This document shows, one piece after another, positions 6,001 through 63,043 of a DNA stretch of 64,000 nt. A model generated the notes under the pieces. The model did not search any database, had not been told where the DNA came from, and saw only the letters and a program-made list of their open reading frames with translations. The stretch is from Lysobacter spongiicola DSM 21749 (GTDB lineage: Bacteria; Pseudomonadota; Gammaproteobacteria; Xanthomonadales; Xanthomonadaceae), in contig NZ_FUXP01000010.1 in assembly GCF_900167055.1 (NCBI RefSeq), positions 1 through 64,000 on the forward strand, read 5' to 3'. The position numbers were made by a program, and so were the translations under genes. The stretch's first letter is position 1, and every line of letters begins with the position of its first letter.

Positions 6001-7662
6001 GAGGGACCCGGCCAGCCCATGCGGCGTGCCGGGTCCGGCGCTGAAGTGGCGCAGCCTGCCGGTGGCGGGGTCGAGCAGATCCAGTCCGTCGCCCGTGCCG
6101 ATCCAGATCCTTCCCCGCCGATCCTCCAGCAGCGCGTGCACGTTCGGGTGGGACAGGTAGGCCGGGTTGCCCGGGGCATGGGCGTAATGGACGACACGCC
6201 GGCTCCTGCGCTGGTACTGCACCATGCCCTGGCCGGAGGTGCCGAGCCAGAGATCGCCGGACCGGGCGACCAGGAGCGTGCGGAAGGCGGCCCCGGTCAG
6301 GGCGCCCAGCTGGATCCGCTCGCTGGTTCCCTCCAGCGCCGGGTCCGCCCTGAACAGGCCTTCGGTGGTCGCCAGCCATAGCCGGCCGTGCCCTGCATCG
6401 GCAATCGCCGTGACCTGGCGGGCGCTGCCATCCCGGCGCGCGGGCAGGCGGTCGCTCCAGTCGTCGAAGGCGTCCTTGGACACGTCGTAGCGCAACAGGC
6501 GGGCGTCGTCGGTGCCGAGCCATAGCGCGCCGTCCACACCTTCGTGGATCGCCCTCAAACTGTTGCCGGCCGCATGGTGTGCCTGCTGCCCGCGGGCCAG
6601 GTCGAGCACGTAGCGGAAGGGCGTGCCCGATGGGTCGACCACCGATACCCCGCGATACTGACCTCCGACCCAGAGGATGCCGCCGGCGTCCAGCATCAGG
6701 CTGCTGATGTGATCCTCCGGCAGTGAAGCGGGCACGGCCGGGTTGTCGCGGATGCGCGTGGCGCTTCCGTCGGTGGGGTCGAAACGCACCAGGCCGCTGC
6801 CATAGGTCGACAACCAGAGGCTGCCGTCCGGCGCCTGCACCAGTTGGCGCACGTCGGATCCACCGGCACGATCGCCGCCGGCATCCAGTGGCCATTGCTT
6901 GACCAGCAGGCCGTCGCCGTCGAGCCGGAACAGGCCATCGCGACGGCCCACCCACAGGGCGCCGTCGCGGTCGACCAGCAACGACTGGTTGACGGACGGT
7001 CCCCCCACCAGGCGTGCGCGACTGCCGTCAACGCGGAACAGCCCGGCCGCGGATGCGAACCAGATCGTGCCGTCGGCGTCGGCCAGCAACTGCTGGAAAG
7101 GCGAGCTCATTCGCCGGCTGTCGAGCTCGAGTACCCGCTCGCGCCGTCCCGTTGCCGGGTCGAACAGGTCCAGGCCCTCCATGCTGCCGACCCACACGCG
7201 TCCGTTGCGCGGCAGCAGCGACATCACCTGCCGGCCGGGATCGCCGCTTCCGGCATCGGGTGGCATGAAGCGTTCGATCCGGCCGGTGTCGAGGTCCAAC
7301 CGCGACACGAACCGCGAGTGCGTCCCGATCCACAGCGCGTCGTCGCCTTCCAGTGCCAGGGCCGTCACGACATTGTCCGGCAGGCTGGATGGGTCCCGCG
7401 GGTCGTGCCGGTGTGGCAGGTAGCGCTGGCCGTCGTAGCGGTGCAGGCCACCCTGGGTGGCGATCCATACGAAGCCGCGCCGGTCCTGCACCATCGCGGT
7501 GACGGAATTCTGGGCCAGCCCCCTTTCACTCCCGATCGGCGCGAAGTAGTAATCGCGCACCTCGGCGATTGCGGTGACAGGCGCCGCCAACCACAGCATT
7601 GCCGTGGCCACCAGCGCGAGCGCGCGTGCCTTGGGCTTCAGGAACGGGCAGTGGGAACGCAC
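3046..7662 (-). CDS. Periplasmic propeller sensor with PAS, GGDEF and EAL domains
   Basis: This is a 1538-residue hybrid c-di-GMP enzyme. From the proposed GTG start at 7662 there is a cleavable-looking signal segment ending in VTAIA (about residues 1-33). Next come many two-component-regulator propeller repeats (WIATQGGLHRYDG, WIGTHS, WVGSMEGLDLFD and similar, to about 660), a Y_Y_Y domain (about 735-790), one membrane helix (about 800-821), two PAS modules, GGDEF (motif at 1170-1174) and EAL (motif at 1299-1301). GGDEF is intact but lacks an upstream RxxD inhibitory site. The EAL domain has its catalytic set (EAL, NVSA, ELTES, DDFGTG, KIDKEF, AEGVE), so phosphodiesterase activity is likely, perhaps with GTP-stimulated or cyclase activity. 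The ligand is unknown. An ATG at 7746 is an alternative start. Confidence 0.9.
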   Translation of the reverse strand: MRSHCPFLKPKARALALVATAMLWLAAPVTAIAEVRDYYFAPIGSERGLAQNSVTAMVQDRRGFVWIATQGGLHRYDGQRYLPHRHDPRDPSSLPDNVVTALALEGDDALWIGTHSRFVSRLDLDTGRIERFMPPDAGSGDPGRQVMSLLPRNGRVWVGSMEGLDLFDPATGRRERVLELDSRRMSSPFQQLLADADGTIWFASAAGLFRVDGSRARLVGGPSVNQSLLVDRDGALWVGRRDGLFRLDGDGLLVKQWPLDAGGDRAGGSDVRQLVQAPDGSLWLSTYGSGLVRFDPTDGSATRIRDNPAVPASLPEDHISSLMLDAGGILWVGGQYRGVSVVDPSGTPFRYVLDLARGQQAHHAAGNSLRAIHEGVDGALWLGTDDARLLRYDVSKDAFDDWSDRLPARRDGSARQVTAIADAGHGRLWLATTEGLFRADPALEGTSERIQLGALTGAAFRTLLVARSGDLWLGTSGQGMVQYQRRSRRVVHYAHAPGNPAYLSHPNVHALLEDRRGRIWIGTGDGLDLLDPATGRLRHFSAGPGTPHGLAGSLVRALHEDEEGRIWVGTHSGLNRVSEQPDGSVQFLQPLPDALDFDLPPAVYAIAGDDLPGSSKLWLATDIGVLRLDTGTGAVRRYGLADGLQDLEFNGGAVAPLSDGSIAFGGVRGLNLFHPARMQDPAYVPPLQLLSARAGADAAVDAGVRWQGGPLTVPDGADILRLRVGALDFAPAASILYRYRLEGFDKGWIDNGPQGDITYTRLPPGSYVLRAQASDRAGSWTGAELRVPVDIAPPLWRHPATIAATLLALLAWLAWLAWQWRQRRDREQGWFRQIREREERLKLALWASGEQFWDYDLRTREIQRMQVSDTSSARPDISVGTVVSGDESIHPEDREQVREAMVRHLRGEVALFLSEHRTRGGGEGADWHWVRARGRVVERSSDGRAVRVAGTARDITANRSAERERRISSEVLRSMAEAVAVFDDQFRFVSVNPAFTRMTGYAASDVLGHSTSLLDGHQHHAGFYSSIRDALQRDGRWSGEVWQQRRDGEEFLCWLQAGAVSDMHGGRGHYVAVLTDITEQKRAEQELRYLANYDPLTSLPNRTLLSERLSRSIVRARAGRRKIAVLFLDLDRFKDINDSLGHAAGDRILGAAARRLQQTVGASHTVARLGGDEFTVVLEDLHDALQAEAVAADLIAAFETPLQLDEQTDVVISPSIGISLYPDHARIPSDLLKHADTAMYQAKAMGRRTFMVYEPSMDIDIRRRATLSAALRKVLDRGELSLVFQPQQSLSNGDVTGVEALLRWHSPELGDILPSQFIPLAEENGLILEIGEWVLQQACATLGRWRALGVSGVCMAVNVSALQLLRGDLPTVVARVLEQTGLPPEHLELELTESVLMANPEQNAAKLQAFRSLGVGLAVDDFGTGYSSLSYLKRLPITSIKIDKEFVDDLSHDPDDAAITSTIIKMAHSLGLSVIAEGVETEDQVRFLRDHRCDEIQGFWLARPMSEQDCLAFLLEHARHDDLLSAGAATRMTSTPAS

Positions 7663-49507: not shown

Positions 49508-50080
49508 ATGCGACCTGCGCACGCGTCACCGGACCCGGTGAGTCGGCTTCTGCTTCGCATTGTGCTGGGGGCGATGCTGGCGCTCGCCTCGACAGCGTGC
49601 TCCACCCGGGCGGTGCGGACCGATGTCGATTACGCCATGGTGCTGCCGCCGTTCGCTGAGCGGACCCGGCTACAGCAGGACGATGTCTTCCTGATGGCGG
49701 CGCCCATCGAAAGTCCCCTCCCGCTATTTCCCGGCGACGTTGATCCACACGAATTGGCGGGGGCGGTGAGCGTGTGCATCGAGCTGGTGGTGGACGAGCA
49801 TGGCGAGGTGTCATCGATTGAACCCCTCGACATCGGTTCTTCGTGCACCGACGTTTCGGGTTATCCAGGGAGCAGCTTCCTCCGGGAAGTGACGGGTGCA
49901 GTTGCCCGGTGGTCCTTCATCGCTGCAGCGATCTGCACCCCTGCTGAAAACGATGGGGAAGATTGCGAGTCTCCGGAGGCCATGGTGCGGGCGATTCCGG
50001 TGAAGCTGTCCTACATGTTTGCATTCACCCGGGATGGCGAGGTCGGCGGCGTAACCTCGCCCCGGAGTGTCATGCGATGA
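49508..50080 (+). CDS. Putative lipoprotein with a TonB-C-like domain
   Basis: This is a 190-residue protein with a hydrophobic signal (residues 13-30) and a cysteine at residue 31 in LASTAC, a lipoprotein-like but not perfect lipobox. The C-terminal half (VSVCIELVVDEHGEVSSIE, then FLREVTGAVARWSF) has the beta-alpha-beta layout and the closing RWSF of TonB C-terminal/energy-transducer-like domains. An AGGGAGG ribosome site lies eight bases before the ATG. It lies 40 bases after tkt and 34 bases before the ABC ATPase gene on the same strand, so it may belong with that operon. No function is known. Confidence 0.75.
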   Translation: MRPAHASPDPVSRLLLRIVLGAMLALASTACSTRAVRTDVDYAMVLPPFAERTRLQQDDVFLMAAPIESPLPLFPGDVDPHELAGAVSVCIELVVDEHGEVSSIEPLDIGSSCTDVSGYPGSSFLREVTGAVARWSFIAAAICTPAENDGEDCESPEAMVRAIPVKLSYMFAFTRDGEVGGVTSPRSVMR

Positions 50081-50114: not shown

Positions 50115-50789
50115 TTGATCGAACTGCAGCAGGTGCGCCGCACCTACCGGATGAGCGGACAAGCGCTACACGCGCTCGATGGCGTGGATCTGAGTATCGG
50201 AGCGGGGGAGTTCGTGGCGATCACCGGGCCGTCCGGCTCGGGCAAGTCAAGCCTGCTCAATATTCTGGGTTGCCTGGACCGGCCCGACAGCGGTCGTTAC
50301 CTGATCGAGGGCGAGGACGTCGCCGGTTTCGACGATGAGGCGACCAGCGACATCCGCAACCGCCGGATCGGCTTCGTGTTCCAGAGTTTCCACCTGCTGC
50401 CGCGCCTGAGCGTGCTGGAGAACGTACTGCTGCCGCTGCGCTTCCACCGCGACCCGCCGGCGTCGGCGCACGAGCATGCGCGCGAACTGCTGCAGCGGGT
50501 CGGCTTGGCCGACCGCAGCAGCCACCGTCCCAATGAACTGTCTGGCGGACAGGTGCAGCGTGCCGCGATCGCCCGGGCGCTGCTGCTCAGGCCGGCGCTG
50601 CTGCTGGCCGACGAGCCGACCGGCAACCTCGATTCGCGCAGCGCGGCGGACGTGCTGGGCTTGCTCGACGAAGTGCATCGCAGCGGTCAGACGGTGGTGC
50701 TAGTAACGCACGACAACGACGTCGCCGCCCGCGCCCTGCGCGGCATCCGCCTGCGCGATGGTCGGATCGAACAAGATGTCGCGCACTGA
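50115..50789 (+). CDS. ABC transporter ATP-binding protein (MacB/LolD type)
   Basis: This is a 224-residue stand-alone nucleotide-binding subunit. Walker A is GPSGSGKSS (about residues 36-44), the Q loop is FVFQSFHLLP, the signature is LSGGQVQRAAIARAL, Walker B is LLLADEPTGNLDS and the switch His is in LVTHDND. This is the MacB/LolD/FtsE subgroup that drives mechanotransmission-type permeases. The start is a TTG at 50115 following GGGGACGGGG. The adaptor gene starts inside its 3' end. Confidence 0.93.
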   Translation: MIELQQVRRTYRMSGQALHALDGVDLSIGAGEFVAITGPSGSGKSSLLNILGCLDRPDSGRYLIEGEDVAGFDDEATSDIRNRRIGFVFQSFHLLPRLSVLENVLLPLRFHRDPPASAHEHARELLQRVGLADRSSHRPNELSGGQVQRAAIARALLLRPALLLADEPTGNLDSRSAADVLGLLDEVHRSGQTVVLVTHDNDVAARALRGIRLRDGRIEQDVAH

Positions 50790-51735
50790 CCTGCGCGCCG
50801 GCGTCATGGTGCTCGGCCTGCTGCTGGCGCCGGCCGCGGGCGCGGTGGTGCTGACCGGTGAGGTGCAGGCGGTCGACGCGCAGCCGATCTACACCCCGCA
50901 AGCGAACTCTTCGCCGGTCGTGCTGCGGTACTTCGTGCCGGAGGGCGCCCGGGTGGAGCCCGGTGACGTGGTGCTGCGGGTCGATCCGGGCGGTTCCGCC
51001 GGACAGATCCGCGACCTCGAGGCCCAGATCGAGCAGGCGCGGGTGCGGATGGACAAGGAGCTGGCCGGGCTGCGGGTCGAGGTGGTCGATGCCGAGCTGG
51101 CGCTGGTGGACGCCGACGCGGCGCGTGAGGTTGCCGCGATCGATGCCGGGATTCCGGCCGGGCTGATCGCAGCGCTCGATCACGACCGCTACCAGGGCGA
51201 GCTCGACCGGACCAGCCGCGAGTACGCGCTCAAGCAGAAGGAGCTGGCGGCCGCACTCGCCGCGATAGGCCGCCGGCAGCAGGACGGGACCCTGGAGATC
51301 GACAAGCTGGTCGCCCAGCGTGACTACCACGCCGCGCGGGTGCGGATGTCCGAGGTGCGTGCCGAGCAGGCGGGCGTGGTGGTGCATGGCTTCAACAACA
51401 ACTGGATCGGCGGCCGCATCGACGAGGGCAGCTCCACCCTGCCGGGCAGCAAGGCCGGCGAGGTGGTCAGCGGGGGTGCCATGCGCGTTCGAGCGTGGGC
51501 GCTGGAGCCGGACCGCCGCGGGCTCATGGTCGGGCAGGCGGTGGGGCTCGCCTTCGATGCACTGCCGGGGCGGCTGACGCCCGGCCGCATCAGCGCGATT
51601 GCCGGCGTCCCCGAGGACAGGCCAGAGTGGGGCGAAGGGCGTTACTTCACCATCGACATTGAAATCCCGGCACAAGGCGAGCTCAAGCTGCTGCCGGGGA
51701 TGAGCGTAAGAGTCGATGCCGGAGCGGTGCCATGA
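50776..51735 (+). CDS. Periplasmic adaptor 1 of the ABC exporter (HlyD-like)
   Basis: This is a 319-residue exported adaptor. The signal peptide ends near APAAGA; then come a first lipoyl-like half (LRYFVPEGARVEPGDVVLRVD), a helical region (about residues 80-175), the second half with EQAGVVVHGFNNNWIGG (about 196-212) and a beta-barrel end with DIEIPAQGELKLLPGMSVRV. The ATG at 50776 gives a 14-base overlap with the ATPase gene; the ATG at 50758 is an alternative. It shares a Trp-centred turn with the two following adaptors. Confidence 0.88.
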   Translation: MSRTDLRAGVMVLGLLLAPAAGAVVLTGEVQAVDAQPIYTPQANSSPVVLRYFVPEGARVEPGDVVLRVDPGGSAGQIRDLEAQIEQARVRMDKELAGLRVEVVDAELALVDADAAREVAAIDAGIPAGLIAALDHDRYQGELDRTSREYALKQKELAAALAAIGRRQQDGTLEIDKLVAQRDYHAARVRMSEVRAEQAGVVVHGFNNNWIGGRIDEGSSTLPGSKAGEVVSGGAMRVRAWALEPDRRGLMVGQAVGLAFDALPGRLTPGRISAIAGVPEDRPEWGEGRYFTIDIEIPAQGELKLLPGMSVRVDAGAVP

Positions 51736-52715
51736 AGCGGGTACACGTGGCCGCCATAGTGCTGCTGGCGATGTGTGCGTCGCCGGTGGTTGCAGCGGTG
51801 CTGTCGATCGATGGCGAGGTCTATGCGGGCGAATCCAAAGCCCTCATGCCGCCGAGCATCGATGGTGTGTGGATGCTCAACATCACCCGGATCGCGCCGG
51901 ACGGATCGCCGGTGAAGGTGGGCGAGGTCGTGCTCGGCTTCGACGGCAATAGCCTGATGCAGGATTTGAACTCGAAGAACAGCAAGTTGGGCGAGAAGCA
52001 GCGCGAGCTGGAAACACTGCTGCTCGACCTCGCCGAGCGAGAGCGTACCGAACGCCTGGCGACCGCGGAGGCGCGCGCGGACGTCGACAAGGCCCGGCGC
52101 AAGACAGGGCAGCCGCAGGCGCTGATCCCTGGCACCGAATATCGGAAATTGATCATTGCCCGGGAAAGAGCCGAGCGGCGACTGTCGTTGGCGGAGGAGC
52201 GCGAGCGGCTCTCCGCCGAGCAGCGCCGGCAGGAGCGACGGCTGGTCGAGGCCGAGATCGCGCAATTGCAGGGCGAGGTCGCACATCTGCAGGACGCGCT
52301 GGCATCGCTCGAGGTGAAGGCGCCGCGCGAGGGGCTGATGATGCACAAGAGCAGCTGGAGCGGTGACAAGTTCGATGTGGGGTCGCAGGTGTTCCGCGGC
52401 CAGGCGGTCGCAGAGATCCCCGATACCGGGACCCTGGCGGTGCGCGGCGATCTACCCGAACGCGACCTGTCGCGCGTCCGCATCGGCATGCCGGTGCGGG
52501 TGGTGGTCGAAGGCGGCGCCGGCATTGCGGTTGCCGGTCGTATCGAGGCGGTTGGCCGGGCGGTGCGCAGCAAATCGCGAGTGCAGCCGGTGCCGGTGCT
52601 GGACCTGGAAATCGCGCTGGGCGACGCGGCCGACCTGCTGAAGCCAGGGCAATCGGTGCGGGTGGAGGTGCAAGTGGCCGACGAACAGGCGCGATCGGCG
52701 GGAGCGCCGCGGTGA
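51732..52715 (+). CDS. Periplasmic adaptor 2 of the ABC exporter (HlyD-like)
   Basis: This is a 327-residue exported adaptor paralogous to the previous one. The signal peptide ends near SPVVAA; a strand region (VWMLNITRIAPDGSPVKVGEVVL) leads into a long coiled coil (about residues 75-195, with ERAERRLSLAEERERLSAEQ), the lipoyl turn REGLMMHKSSWSGDKFDVG and a barrel domain with LKPGQSVRVEVQVAD. Its ATG overlaps the stop of adaptor 1 by four bases (ATGA), and adaptor 3 starts in its stop. Confidence 0.88.
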   Translation: MKRVHVAAIVLLAMCASPVVAAVLSIDGEVYAGESKALMPPSIDGVWMLNITRIAPDGSPVKVGEVVLGFDGNSLMQDLNSKNSKLGEKQRELETLLLDLAERERTERLATAEARADVDKARRKTGQPQALIPGTEYRKLIIARERAERRLSLAEERERLSAEQRRQERRLVEAEIAQLQGEVAHLQDALASLEVKAPREGLMMHKSSWSGDKFDVGSQVFRGQAVAEIPDTGTLAVRGDLPERDLSRVRIGMPVRVVVEGGAGIAVAGRIEAVGRAVRSKSRVQPVPVLDLEIALGDAADLLKPGQSVRVEVQVADEQARSAGAPR

Positions 52716-54022
52716 TTCCGGCCAGGACAGGGCGACTGGTCGTCTGCCTGCTGTTGGCGCTTGCCGCTGCCATGCTCGCCGGCTGCGGCGACGACGTCGC
52801 GCCACCGACGGTGGAGACGGTCACGCGCGTGCCGCTGGTGCTGGACGTCATCGGCGAGGGCCCGCTGCAGTCGGCCAAGGCCACCCCGCTGCTGGTGCCG
52901 GGCCAGGGCTGGGCGCAACGGCAGCTGGTCTGGATGCGGGACGAGGGCAGCCGGGTGGAGGAGGGCGAGGTGCTGGCACGCTTCAGCACCGAACGCGGCG
53001 AGCTCGACCTGGCCGAGGCGCGGGTGGATCTGGAGCGCAATGCCCTGGCGCGCGCGGCCAAGCAGGCCGAGCTCACGACCGGCCAGGGCCGGGTGGCGGT
53101 CGACCTGTCCAAGGTCGCGATGGACCTGTCGATCGCCGAGCGCTACGCCGGCGCCGACCTGTCCACGATGGCCCGCAACGACGTACTCGACGCCATCCAG
53201 GACGTCGACTACCTCGGTGCCAAGCGCGACACCCTGCGCTGGAAGCAGGGCCAGTCCAGCGAGCGGGGCGCCGCCGAACTCGCGGTGCTCGATGCCCAGC
53301 GGGCGACGGTGGCGATCGAGGCCGAGCGCAGCCGCAAGGACCTCGAGGCGCTGGAGCTGCGCGCCCCGCACGCCGGGGTGATGATGCTCACCGCCGACTG
53401 GAGCGGCGAGAAGCCGACCATCGGCAGCAGCCTGCGGCCAGGCTCCGAACTCGGCCGCCTGCCCGACACGAGCACGCTGGAAGTCGAGCTGGCGATGCCG
53501 CAGATCCAGGCGCAGGGCGTCGCCGTCGGCAATATGGTCGAGCTGTCGCCGGTCGGCCGCCCCGGGCAGCAGGTGACCAGCACCATCAGCTGGGTGGCCA
53601 GCGCGGCCAAGGTCATGAGCCGCAACAGCCCGGTGAAGTACCTGACGATGAAGGCGACGGTGCCGGCCGAAGCCGCCCGCAAGCACGGCTGGGTTCCCGG
53701 TCAGAAGCTGCGCGCGCGGGTGGTGCTGTTCGAGGGTCAGGCGATGAGCGTGGCCAACATCGCGCTGCGCAGCGAAGCAGGAAGGCACTACGTGCAGGTC
53801 CGCGGCGGCGAAGGCTTCGCGCGCCGCCAGGTGGAAATCGGCGTGCGCGGTAGCGCCCGCTCCCAAGTGCTGGAGGGGTTGTCACCGGGCGACGAGGTGC
53901 TGCTGGTCGACGGCGGCACGGCCGCCGATGCGATCGGCGCGATAGATCCGGAGGCCTCGCCAGGAACTGATCCGGCCGGTGGCAACAACAACAGCGATGA
54001 CAGCAAGGAGCCGGGGTCGTGA
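52712..54022 (+). CDS. Periplasmic adaptor 3 of the ABC exporter, lipoprotein
   Basis: This is the largest of the three adaptors (436 residues) and carries a lipoprotein signal, LAGC at about residues 22-25, so it should be anchored by lipid to a membrane. It has a lipoyl half (QLVWMRDEGSRVEEGEVLARF), a helical hairpin (about residues 100-210), the matching turn GVMMLTADWSGEKPTIG, and a MacA-like barrel and membrane-proximal part (GWVPGQKLRARVVLFEG, then VLEGLSPGDEVLLVDGG). The GTG start overlaps adaptor 2 by four bases. Confidence 0.9.
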   Translation: MIPARTGRLVVCLLLALAAAMLAGCGDDVAPPTVETVTRVPLVLDVIGEGPLQSAKATPLLVPGQGWAQRQLVWMRDEGSRVEEGEVLARFSTERGELDLAEARVDLERNALARAAKQAELTTGQGRVAVDLSKVAMDLSIAERYAGADLSTMARNDVLDAIQDVDYLGAKRDTLRWKQGQSSERGAAELAVLDAQRATVAIEAERSRKDLEALELRAPHAGVMMLTADWSGEKPTIGSSLRPGSELGRLPDTSTLEVELAMPQIQAQGVAVGNMVELSPVGRPGQQVTSTISWVASAAKVMSRNSPVKYLTMKATVPAEAARKHGWVPGQKLRARVVLFEGQAMSVANIALRSEAGRHYVQVRGGEGFARRQVEIGVRGSARSQVLEGLSPGDEVLLVDGGTAADAIGAIDPEASPGTDPAGGNNNSDDSKEPGS

Positions 54023-55269
54023 ATCGATGGCTGCACGCATTGCCGCCGATCTGGCGCGAGGCGATCGAGGAGTTGTGGCGCCGTCGCCTGCGCACCGGTT
54101 TGACCCTGCTCGGGCTGATCTTCGGCGTCGGCGCGATCGTGGCGATGCAGGCAGTCGGTGAAGGCAGCCGGCGCGAGGCGCTACGGATGGTCGAGAGCCT
54201 CGGCCTGCACAACCTGATCGTGGAGACCGTCCACCAGGACGAGGACACCCGCAAGGAAAACCGCGAACGCAGCCTCGGCCTCAGCGTCGCCGACGGTCGG
54301 GCCGCGCTGGCGGTGGTACCGGGCGCCGAGGCCTATGCGGTCGAGAAGGAGGTCCGCACCCACTCGGTCTTCAGCGACAGCGGCCGCAGCGATGCGCGGG
54401 CCAGTGGTGTCAGTGACGGCTTCTTTCAGCTGTCGTCGCTGCAGGTTGGTGCCGGCCGTGCGCTGAACGACGACGACGCCGCGGCGCTATCGCCCGTTGC
54501 CGTGCTTGGCAGCCAGGCCGCGGCCGACCTGTTCCCGGCCGGCGATGCGGTCGGCCGACACGTCAAAGTCAACCACGTCTGGCTCGAGGTGGTCGGCGTG
54601 CTCGCCGACCGCGATCTGGGCGAGGCGAAGTTCGAGGGGATGCAACTGGGGCTGGAGAGCAACCGGATCTACGTGCCGTTGCCCAGCGCCCGCGCACGCT
54701 TTCGTTTCGAGCCGCTGGAGGACGAGGTCGACCGGGTGCTGCTGAAACTGGCCGACCCGGGACAACTGATGGCGGGCGCGCGGGTGTTCGCGGCAGTGCT
54801 CGACCAGCGCCACGCCGGCGCCGGCGATTACCGGCTGGTGGTGCCGCAGCAATTGTTCCGCCAGCATCAACAGACGCAGCGGATTTTCCGGGTGGTGATG
54901 GGCGCGATTGCGGGTGTCAGCCTGTTGGTCGGTGGCATCGGCATCATGAACATCATGCTCGCCAACGTGCTGGAGCGGCGGCGTGAGATCGGCCTGCTGC
55001 GCGCGCTGGGAGCGCGCCAGCACGACGTCATCGCCCAGTTCCTTCGCGAGGCGGCGGTGATCTGCGTCGCCGGCGCACTACTCGGCCTACTGTTCGGGGT
55101 GCTGCTGGCCTATTCGATCGCGCTGTTCGCTGACTGGCAGGTGGCTTGGGCACCCATGCCGATCGTGCTGTCGGTCGCCTTCTGTGCACTGGTCGGGCTC
55201 GGCTTCGGCGTGTATCCGGCGCGGCAGGCGGCGCGGCTGAACCCGATCGCCGCACTCCGCCACGATTAG
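54019..55269 (+). CDS. ABC transporter permease (MacB/FtsX type)
   Basis: This is a 416-residue permease of the type VII (mechanotransmission) ABC family. The first helix (about residues 26-44, with TGLTLLGLIFGVGAIVAM) is followed by a periplasmic MacB_PCD-like domain (about 45-290). The C-terminal FtsX domain has three helices and the conserved block GGIGIMNIMLANVLERRREIGLLRALGA. It has no ATPase domain; the separate ATPase at 50115 supplies it. It starts with a GTG overlapping adaptor 3 by four bases. The gap 55270-55419 holds no gene that I can see. Confidence 0.93.
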   Translation: MNRWLHALPPIWREAIEELWRRRLRTGLTLLGLIFGVGAIVAMQAVGEGSRREALRMVESLGLHNLIVETVHQDEDTRKENRERSLGLSVADGRAALAVVPGAEAYAVEKEVRTHSVFSDSGRSDARASGVSDGFFQLSSLQVGAGRALNDDDAAALSPVAVLGSQAAADLFPAGDAVGRHVKVNHVWLEVVGVLADRDLGEAKFEGMQLGLESNRIYVPLPSARARFRFEPLEDEVDRVLLKLADPGQLMAGARVFAAVLDQRHAGAGDYRLVVPQQLFRQHQQTQRIFRVVMGAIAGVSLLVGGIGIMNIMLANVLERRREIGLLRALGARQHDVIAQFLREAAVICVAGALLGLLFGVLLAYSIALFADWQVAWAPMPIVLSVAFCALVGLGFGVYPARQAARLNPIAALRHD

Positions 55270-61374: not shown

Positions 61375-61746
61375 ATGCAGATCAGTGAAGCCGAATCCGT
61401 CGTGATGCAGGTCTTGTGGACCCGGAGCCCGATGTCCGCCGAGGAGGTGGTCGCCGCGCTGGAAGGCGAGCGCGAATGGCAAGCCGCCACCATCAAGACC
61501 CTGCTCGGCCGGCTGCTGAACAAGGGGGCGATCCAGGCCGAGCGGCAGGGACGGCGCTACCTGTACTCGCCCGTCCTGGAGCGCAGTCAATGGATGCTGG
61601 GTGAGAGCGAGGGCCTGCTGCAGCGGCTGTTCGACGGCCGCGTGGCGCCGCTGGTCGCGCACTTCAGTTCGCACCGGAAGCTGAGCCGGGCGGATGTCGC
61701 CGAGCTGCGCAGGCTGGTCGAGGAGCTCGACGATGGACGCGAGTGA
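61375..61746 (+). CDS. BlaI/MecI family transcriptional repressor
   Basis: This is a 123-residue repressor with the penicillinase-repressor winged helix: QISEAESVVMQVLWTRSPMSA (split here by reading), then EWQAATIKTLLGRLLNKGAI and RRYLYSPV. In BlaI/MecI systems the repressor is cleaved when the neighbouring membrane peptidase is activated. The C-terminal helices that include the dimer and cleavage region (HRKLSRADVAELRRLV) are present. It sits at twin operators and overlaps the M56 peptidase gene by 14 bases. Confidence 0.93.
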   Translation: MQISEAESVVMQVLWTRSPMSAEEVVAALEGEREWQAATIKTLLGRLLNKGAIQAERQGRRYLYSPVLERSQWMLGESEGLLQRLFDGRVAPLVAHFSSHRKLSRADVAELRRLVEELDDGRE

Positions 61747-63043
61747 GCTGCTGGGAGTCCTGGTTGAGCTGACCCTCTCGTCGAGCGCGGCGCTCGCGCT
61801 GGTGATGCTGGCGCGACGCCCGCTCCGGGCCGCGTTCGGTGCCGGCGTGGCTTACCTGTCATGGCTGCTGGTACCGGTCGCGATGCTGGCGGTGCTGCTG
61901 CCGGCGGCGACGGTGGAGGTGGGTTCGCTGGCGGTGGTGCCCGATGTCAGGCAGCAGGCGCTCGCCAGCGTCGGAGCTACCGGCGATGACGGGTTGCTGA
62001 CCATCGCGCTTCTGGCCGGTTGGGCTGCCGGGATGCTGGCGACGATGTGTGCCTTTGCGGCGCTGCAGCGGCGGTTCCGACGGGGCCTCGGCCGGCTGCA
62101 GCCGCTCGCGCCGGGCGTAGTGAAGGCCGAGGCCTGTCGTGGCTTGCCAGCCGCCATCGGCCTGTGGCGGCCACTCATCGTGTTTCCGGCGGACTTCCAG
62201 GAGCGCTACAGCGCGGAACAACTGGAACTGCTGCGGCAGCACGAGCGCATCCACCTGGCACGCGGCGACCTGCAGGCCAACGCGCTGGTGGCGCTGCTCA
62301 GGTGCCTGTTCTGGTTCAACCCGCTGGTCCACCTCGGTTCGCGCTGCTTCCGGCAGGACCAGGAGATGTCCTGCGACCTGCGCGTACTTGCCGGACAACC
62401 GGCTTCGCGTCGCGCCTATGGCGAGGCGATGTTGAAGACCCAACTGGCGGCGCAGCCGCTGCCGGTGGGATGTCACTGGGGCCATGGCCACCCGATGAAG
62501 GAGAGACTCGAGATGCTCAGGAAACCTGCTCCAAAGCGGTATCGCTGGATCGGAGGCAGCGCGGTGGTCTGTGCGCTGTCGCTGTCCATGGGCTACGCGG
62601 CGTGGGCGGCCCAGCCGCCCGTCGGTGGCGGGGGCGCAACCATCGGGCTGGACGCCCCGTCGAAGCCGCCTGCACCCCCGGCTCCGCCCACACCCCCGGT
62701 ACCCCGTGCTCCCGCGGACATGCCCGCACCACCGACGCCAGCGGCACCACCCGCGCCGCCACCACCGTATCCCGGTGCTCCGCCGGCCTATCCGGAGAGT
62801 GCGTACCAGGCCGGTATCGAAGGCCGGGTGGTGCTGGTGGTGGACATCCAGCCCGATGGCAAGCCGGGACGGGTGGTGGTGGAGAGTGCGACGCCGGAGG
62901 GTGTGTTCGAACAGACCGCGCTCGATGCCGCTTCACGCTGGCGCTTCAATCCGCCGATGGAGGACGGCAAGGCGGTTCCGGGGCGGGTGCGGGTGCCGGT
63001 GGATTTCCGGATTCCGCCCGGCCAGGAAGCGAAGCAGGACTGA
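61733..63043 (+). CDS. M56 family (BlaR1-type) membrane metallopeptidase with TonB-like C-terminus
   Basis: This 436-residue integral membrane protein has an N-terminal set of helices, the M56 zinc motif HERIH (H170, E171, H174) and the later FNPLVHLGSRCFRQDQEMSCD block typical of BlaR1/MecR1. It has no penicillin-binding sensor domain. After the last helix (about residues 285-300) there is a proline-rich linker (about 310-355, many PAP/PPP units) and a TonB C-terminal domain (about 357-430, with GRVVLVVDIQPDGKPG and ALDAASRWRFNP). It probably releases BlaI repression in response to an envelope signal. The ATG at 61733 overlaps the repressor gene. Confidence 0.9.
   Translation: MDASELLGVLVELTLSSSAALALVMLARRPLRAAFGAGVAYLSWLLVPVAMLAVLLPAATVEVGSLAVVPDVRQQALASVGATGDDGLLTIALLAGWAAGMLATMCAFAALQRRFRRGLGRLQPLAPGVVKAEACRGLPAAIGLWRPLIVFPADFQERYSAEQLELLRQHERIHLARGDLQANALVALLRCLFWFNPLVHLGSRCFRQDQEMSCDLRVLAGQPASRRAYGEAMLKTQLAAQPLPVGCHWGHGHPMKERLEMLRKPAPKRYRWIGGSAVVCALSLSMGYAAWAAQPPVGGGGATIGLDAPSKPPAPPAPPTPPVPRAPADMPAPPTPAAPPAPPPPYPGAPPAYPESAYQAGIEGRVVLVVDIQPDGKPGRVVVESATPEGVFEQTALDAASRWRFNPPMEDGKAVPGRVRVPVDFRIPPGQEAKQD

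Follow-up and report, generated by a model that had tools for sequence, protein, structure and literature searches.

Genes and domains of the operon

We analyzed a 64,000-nucleotide stretch of Lysobacter spongiicola DSM 21749 (NZ_FUXP01000010.1, positions 1 to 64,000; hereafter the window), in which a five-gene operon on the + strand (50115–55269) encodes a putative ATP-binding cassette (ABC) exporter with three different periplasmic adaptors, designated A1, A2, and A3, and a single permease. A first-pass annotation made from the letters alone had described a stand-alone ATPase, three adaptors, and one permease joined by overlapping junctions, and all of these genes and junctions were confirmed on the sequence. 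The first gene (50115–50789; TTG start, 224 amino acids; Pfam ABC_tran) encodes a MacB/LolD-type ATPase that is separate from the permease, unlike the fused MacB. It is followed by A1 (50776–51735; 319 amino acids) and A2 (51732–52715; 327 amino acids), which share an architecture of lipoyl domain, beta-barrel, and long hairpin (126 residues in A1) without a membrane-proximal domain, and by A3 (52712–54022; GTG start, 436 amino acids), which is MacA-like and retains that domain. The last gene (54019–55269; GTG start, 416 amino acids; Pfam MacB_PCD and FtsX) encodes a MacB/FtsX-type permease devoid of an ATPase domain. The successive overlaps measure 14 bases, then 4 (ATGA), 4 (GTGA), and 4 (GTGA). 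As the annotation had proposed, two adaptors appear to be exported and one to be a lipoprotein, with plain signal peptides read by eye on A1 and A2 and the lipobox LAGC in the signal of A3.

Pfam assigned all three adaptors to HlyD_3/HlyD_D23, with A1 exceeding the cut-off for HlyD_3 only, and NCBIfam concurred with it on an ATPase resembling MacB/LolD, three adaptors of HlyD type, and a permease with MacB_PCD and FtsX. The adaptors are mutually homologous (pairwise BLASTP E values of 7e-14, 3e-15, and 7e-12). A darobactin-type exporter was rejected, since the ATPase reached only 211 of the 375 bits required by the DarD model and scored higher with the MacB and LolD models. The expectation that a MacB-type pump usually has one adaptor held within the same genome, where four other MacB_PCD loci have one adaptor nearby (contigs C11, C14, C15, and C28) and the two remaining loci (C8 and C16) show no adaptor match close by. 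A scan for promoters and terminators gave nothing exceeding chance.

Conservation and distribution of the operon

Loci were chosen by an A2-like match, a strong A2 relative being one of at least 39% identity, and the constant presence of three adaptors described here is conditional on that choice. Among the 149 genomes of the family sample, 27 carried a strong A2 relative, the window genome counted. Of the 26 relatives fetched, 25 had the complete five-gene set arranged as in the window, with the ATPase gene first in every complete locus (25/25), and the 26th (G014) was split over two contigs. Five more genomes of the same genus gave weak matches only, and, judged by such sequence matches, the distribution of the operon inside the genus is patchy. 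A scan of named genomes, which overlaps the family sample for the Lysobacteraceae and is not independent of it, yielded 44 loci, 41 of which showed this five-gene arrangement, ATPase first; the three incomplete ones were a short contig and two Acidobacteria records lacking the ATPase. These loci came from Lysobacter, Luteimonas, Pseudoxanthomonas, Thermomonas, Silanimonas, Arenimonas, Chiayiivirga, and Aquimonas, as well as from Stenotrophomonas nitritireducens, several metagenome-assembled genomes (MAGs), one Duganella, and the two Acidobacteria records. Overlapping junctions were equally widespread, with an overlapping start at the ATPase/A1 junction in 41/41 named loci and a start with a 4-base overlap available at A1/A2 in 34 (plus 6 fused), at A2/A3 in 39, and at A3/permease in 40.

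Beyond the family, matches occurred in 55/151 genomes of the window's order, in 11/195 genomes of the family of Duganella, and in 6/299 genomes of the phylum sample, two of the latter belonging to other families of the class and having three adjacent matches. In the class sample (369 genomes, E 1e-15, at most six candidates scored per genome), the full set was found only in the window genome. Among Acidobacteriota, at least 69/149 genomes matched at E 1e-15, and in 43 of the 48 loci analyzed (47 fetched plus L104) exactly three adaptors preceded one permease. Three further loci (L176, L180, and L195) have three adaptors and end ahead of the permease, and L203 is cut inside the operon. The acidobacterial ATPase gene mostly does not adjoin A1. 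All eight full Burkholderiales loci also carry three adaptors followed by one permease. The system is thus no one-strain curiosity, given its occurrence in at least 37 of the 149 sampled Acidobacteriota genomes (hand count) and the matches in the window's order. Three adaptors were present in each of the fetched strong-A2 loci that was uncut and had a permease. Relatives with A2 normally carry three rather than one, and the conserved gene order in the family, named, Acidobacteriota, and Burkholderiales loci rules out unrelated insertions into a one-adaptor operon.

Individual loci showed additional features. In a Chiayiivirga MAG (L083), A2 and A3 are separated by an element (6982–7610) whose inverted arms of 74 bases are 82% complementary, and this is the sole locus of the 41 named ones without an A3 start near the A2 stop. 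Three Acidobacteriota loci (L162, L167, and L171) have a weak single adaptor match plus two permeases near a three-adaptor, one-permease operon, providing a natural contrast of the two layouts. In one Acidobacteria record (L104, 2263–8936), Pfam detected three adaptors of HlyD type and a permease with MacB_PCD and FtsX, immediately followed by an OEP outer-membrane gene, making this a possible complete export operon save for the ATPase.

Natural fusions of A1 and A2

A1 and A2 were encoded in one open frame in 6/25 family loci, 6/41 named loci, 8/43 Acidobacteriota loci, and 8/8 full Burkholderiales loci, as well as in two further Burkholderiales loci cut by contig ends. The Duganella fusion contains two HlyD_3 stretches (Pfam), and in the Lysobacteraceae fusions a short linker replaces the A2 signal peptide. 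A quick tree built from 92 operons placed the fused loci in five separate clades and, through its starred branches, forced at least four changes, a count in which gain and loss of fusion cannot be distinguished. No A2-A3 fusion was detected in the 43 Acidobacteriota and 8 Burkholderiales loci, and no A2-A3, ATPase-A1, or A3-permease fusion in the 41 complete named loci; an apparent A2/A3 fusion mark at L105 resulted from both models matching one gene.

Architecture of the three adaptors

Each adaptor has the HlyD/membrane fusion protein (MFP) layout, namely, a lipoyl/barrel-sandwich domain split by a coiled-coil hairpin and followed by a beta-barrel. The hairpin, taken as the stretch between the lipoyl halves, is 125 or 126 residues long in nearly all A1, A2, and A3 sequences; its length is equal across the three adaptors in 79/93 operons and differs by no more than two residues in 90/93. 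Hairpins of 12 comparison adaptors ranged from 67 to 127 residues, and that of a 13th (L214) came out at 62 or 129 according to how it was aligned. Hairpin tips were generally more conserved than the arms. In Proteobacteria, a C-terminal membrane-proximal domain like that of MacA is retained by A3, and A1 and A2 stop at the barrel, having lost this domain and mostly the membrane anchor too. Across Lysobacteraceae loci, a lipobox occurs in A3 in 37/41, and the adaptor looks like an ordinary exported protein for A1 in 33/41 and for A2 in 29/41 (plus 6 fused). The tryptophan-centered lipoyl turns, which had been put forward as a common mark of the adaptors, are present in the window (NNNWIGG near 51403, KSSWSGD near 52356, and TADWSGE near 53399) but not universal in relatives: the tryptophan was found in 35/41 A1, 34/41 A2, and 41/41 A3 of the Lysobacteraceae and in only 15/43 acidobacterial A1, and A2 of the Burkholderiales has phenylalanine in 8/9.

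AlphaFold models, each built as a single chain, indicated homologous folds. The native A1-A2 fusion L094 (predicted local distance difference test score [pLDDT] 85, predicted template modeling score 0.72) yielded two full adaptors whose hairpins are formed by helices of 51+59 and 53+59 residues, and A3 (pLDDT 87) yielded an adaptor with helices of 53+58 residues plus an extra C-terminal strand domain. In Foldseek searches, the A1-A2 model lay nearest to EmrA, then to MacA and others, and the best matches of the A3 model were MacA in MacAB-TolC.

Evolutionary history of the adaptors

Our careful tree compared 72 adaptors from the operons with 13 others (10 from the window genome, plus MacA, AcrA, and EmrA of Escherichia coli). 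All 72 operon adaptors fell on one side of a branch (support 100/100), apart from the 13 others. Within the main group, every adaptor position formed a clade of its own (A1 99/97, A2 99/98, and A3 100/99), and each of these contained Acidobacteriota, Burkholderiales, and Lysobacteraceae sequences. The earlier suggestion that the adaptors are diverged duplicates is upheld with the amendment that the duplications are ancient, because position-specific clades spanning phyla rule out recent local duplication. In this group A1 paired with A2 (97/82, but only 67 in another quick tree, one that included single-adaptor loci). Operons of a smaller basal group had their own trio; when six of them were included, the 18 adaptors formed a single clade (96/89), which again split into A1, A2, and A3 (100/99, 100/98, and 96/83).

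Approximately unbiased (AU) tests rejected a single A1, A2, or A3 clade over all operons (p values of 0.027, 0.040, and 0.018), as well as the same position-wise joining with the six basal operons (0.006, 0.018, and 0.004). Three single-adaptor loci (L261, L267, and L268), each with one related permease, were sister to all three-adaptor sequences in that additional quick tree, where the two sets joined with a support of 99 and the three-adaptor sequences grouped with 96; the hairpin is 161 residues long in two of the single-adaptor loci. Taken together, the single-adaptor sister loci and the rejected position-wise joining suggest that one adaptor gave rise to three, probably twice over, a reading that depends on the model and whose AU result could be mimicked by gene conversion in the basal group.

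Proposed assembly and competing explanations

The annotation had left a choice between a joint ring and three alternative adaptors, and the evidence favors joint assembly and speaks against alternatives. This preference is based on the presence of three adaptors in uncut strong-A2 loci with a permease, position-specific clades across phyla, recurrent A1-A2 fusions, equal hairpins, and the loss in Proteobacteria of the membrane-proximal domain and mostly the anchor from A1 and A2 only. We consider it rather probable that the operon encodes a tripartite ABC exporter resembling MacAB, with a periplasmic tube that requires all three adaptors, none able to replace another, arranged as a hetero-hexamer of two A1-A2-A3 sets on a permease dimer, the co-assembly itself being inferred. 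The permease would act as a homodimer, as MacB does, and since three adaptors would serve each protomer, six adaptors (2:2:2) would surround it in a ring sharing its two-fold symmetry. A3 would dock on the permease, and A1 and A2 would complete the tube wall, with specialized hairpin tips directed at an outer-membrane factor encoded at another genomic locus. By assumption from MacB, ATP-driven permease motion would push a periplasmic substrate through the tube.

Two other forms of ring deserve weight. Three A1-A2 dimers could form the ring in the manner of TriA-TriB, leaving A3 as a separate accessory adaptor; the sister relationship of A1 and A2 in the main group, their recurrent fusion, and the shared absence of the membrane-proximal domain in Proteobacteria are consistent with this arrangement. 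It is nevertheless unlikely, because the A3 hairpin equals those of A1 and A2 in length, the membrane-proximal domain is confined to A3 in Proteobacteria, a three-fold ring mismatches a dimeric permease, and the basal group shows other sister pairs, unsure as these are (A2 with A3 at 93/84 in one tree, A1 with A3 at 88 in the quick tree that included single-adaptor loci). A mixed ring in which the paralogues can partly replace one another is just as doubtful, whether its subunits follow no set order or ratio or its size is different. Such mixing would be compatible with the equal hairpins and homologous folds, but no swaps between positions occurred among the sampled main-group sequences with their position-specific clades, and translational coupling together with A1-A2 fusions points to fixed 1:1 ratios.

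The remaining explanations dispense with a common ring. Three alternative adaptors could serve one permease according to condition or substrate, and paralogues are often divided by condition; this is very unlikely here, given the fused A1-A2 chains, the single overlapping operon, the invariable presence of all three adaptors in uncut strong-A2 loci with a permease, and the fact that the window's A1 and A2 have neither an anchor nor a membrane-proximal domain. Least credible of all is a role for A1 and A2 as soluble helpers in substrate loading or regulation outside the tube, which would suit their plain exported appearance in most Lysobacteraceae loci but not their full hairpins of A3 length, with tips more conserved than the arms in Proteobacteria.

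Several observations weigh against the 2:2:2 hetero-hexamer. Most acidobacterial A1 and A2 have approximately 60–70 extra C-terminal residues, the size of a membrane-proximal domain, so the division of labor between A3 and A1/A2 is not universal. The RLS tip motif, scored strictly as RxxxLxxxxxxS with S or T allowed, was found in 0/93 A1, 0/93 A2, and 5/93 A3 sequences versus 6/13 other adaptors, leaving docking to a TolC-like channel without support from this motif, and the acidobacterial A2 tip is scarcely more conserved than the arms (2.37 versus 2.43 bits). The operon (50115–55269) contains no outer-membrane factor gene, as the annotation had remarked; 11 OEP-family domain matches lie elsewhere in the L. 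spongiicola genome. In one of the Acidobacteriota loci, L201, a single A2-like adaptor stands without a permease match, and the branching order within the trios differs between trees. Lipidation of A3 may forbid A2-A3 fusion; the confinement of fusion to A1-A2 may merely reflect the need for a free A3 N-terminus, and contact between A1 and A2 is consequently not proved by it. Finally, our literature searches retrieved no experiment on such a pump.

A broader proposal, which we advance tentatively as a possibility falling somewhat short of probable, is that geometry sets the number of adaptors as a ring of six divided by the transporter protomers, so that trimers of the resistance-nodulation-division (RND) type can have two (TriA/TriB) and ABC dimers have three. 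A single-adaptor ancestor would then have given three adaptors twice independently, each time yielding a two-fold hetero-hexamer keyed to the permease dimer and removing the symmetry mismatch of MacAB.

Comparison with known pumps and significance

In MacAB-TolC, a two-fold ABC motor, six adaptors, and a three-fold outer channel meet, and individual ring positions are hard to study because all six adaptors are the same gene product. Three distinct, co-inherited adaptors would give each ring position its own gene, making roles separable by single-gene deletion or tagging, and the A1-A2 fusions fix the copy ratio for two of the three.

MacAB-TolC has the stoichiometry MacA6MacB2TolC3 (PMC5985334); the system described here shares its MacB_PCD and FtsX permease, a MacA-like fold in the A3 model, and, by assumption, the hexamer-on-dimer geometry (PMC5985334). 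It differs in having a separate ATPase gene and three paralogous adaptor genes instead of one, a lipoprotein A3 beside mostly plain exported A1 and A2, a hairpin of 126 residues versus 95, and no RLS motif (motif as in PMC3391258). The Pseudomonas TriABC-OpmH pump likewise equips a single transporter with more than one kind of adaptor, TriA and TriB both being required for efflux (PMC4338810, PMC13328181), but combines two of them with an RND trimer rather than three with an ABC MacB/FtsX-type permease. Two different adaptors serving an ABC-type transporter are also naturally fused in Desulfitobacterium, where DSY0927 unites two MFPs (PMC4338810, PMC4446572); a coiled coil is missing from the N-terminal half of DSY0927, the organism is Gram-positive, and the passage describing the protein mentions no third adaptor (PMC4338810). 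EmrA, the best Foldseek match of the A1-A2 model, shares the long hairpin and the absence of a membrane-proximal domain (PMC4158417), but is a single adaptor of a major facilitator superfamily pump. No three-adaptor ABC pump emerged among the papers listed by our literature searches, whose results were partly off-topic and whose scope excluded preprints and most subscription papers; tripartite ABC exporters with a MacB-type permease are known, and three co-inherited adaptors are new as far as these searches go.

Neighboring genes

The genes around the operon in the window encode a BatD-like protein, a symporter, a transketolase, an acetyl-CoA hydrolase-type protein, c-di-GMP proteins, and an M56 peptidase. 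They gave no clue to the substrate, and the flanks vary between genomes among the matches listed. A small putative lipoprotein gene without a Pfam match (49508–50080, + strand) ends 34 bases ahead of the ATPase start, and weak relatives of it (28–35%) lie upstream of the ATPase in 3/27 fetched family loci (L037, L051, and L057). Farther downstream (61694–63043, + strand), a BlaR1-type M56 peptidase and a TonB C-terminal domain are combined in one gene. In a syntenic relative (L037, 13306–15697), a penicillinase-repressor gene and an M56-TonB_C gene directly follow the exporter operon.

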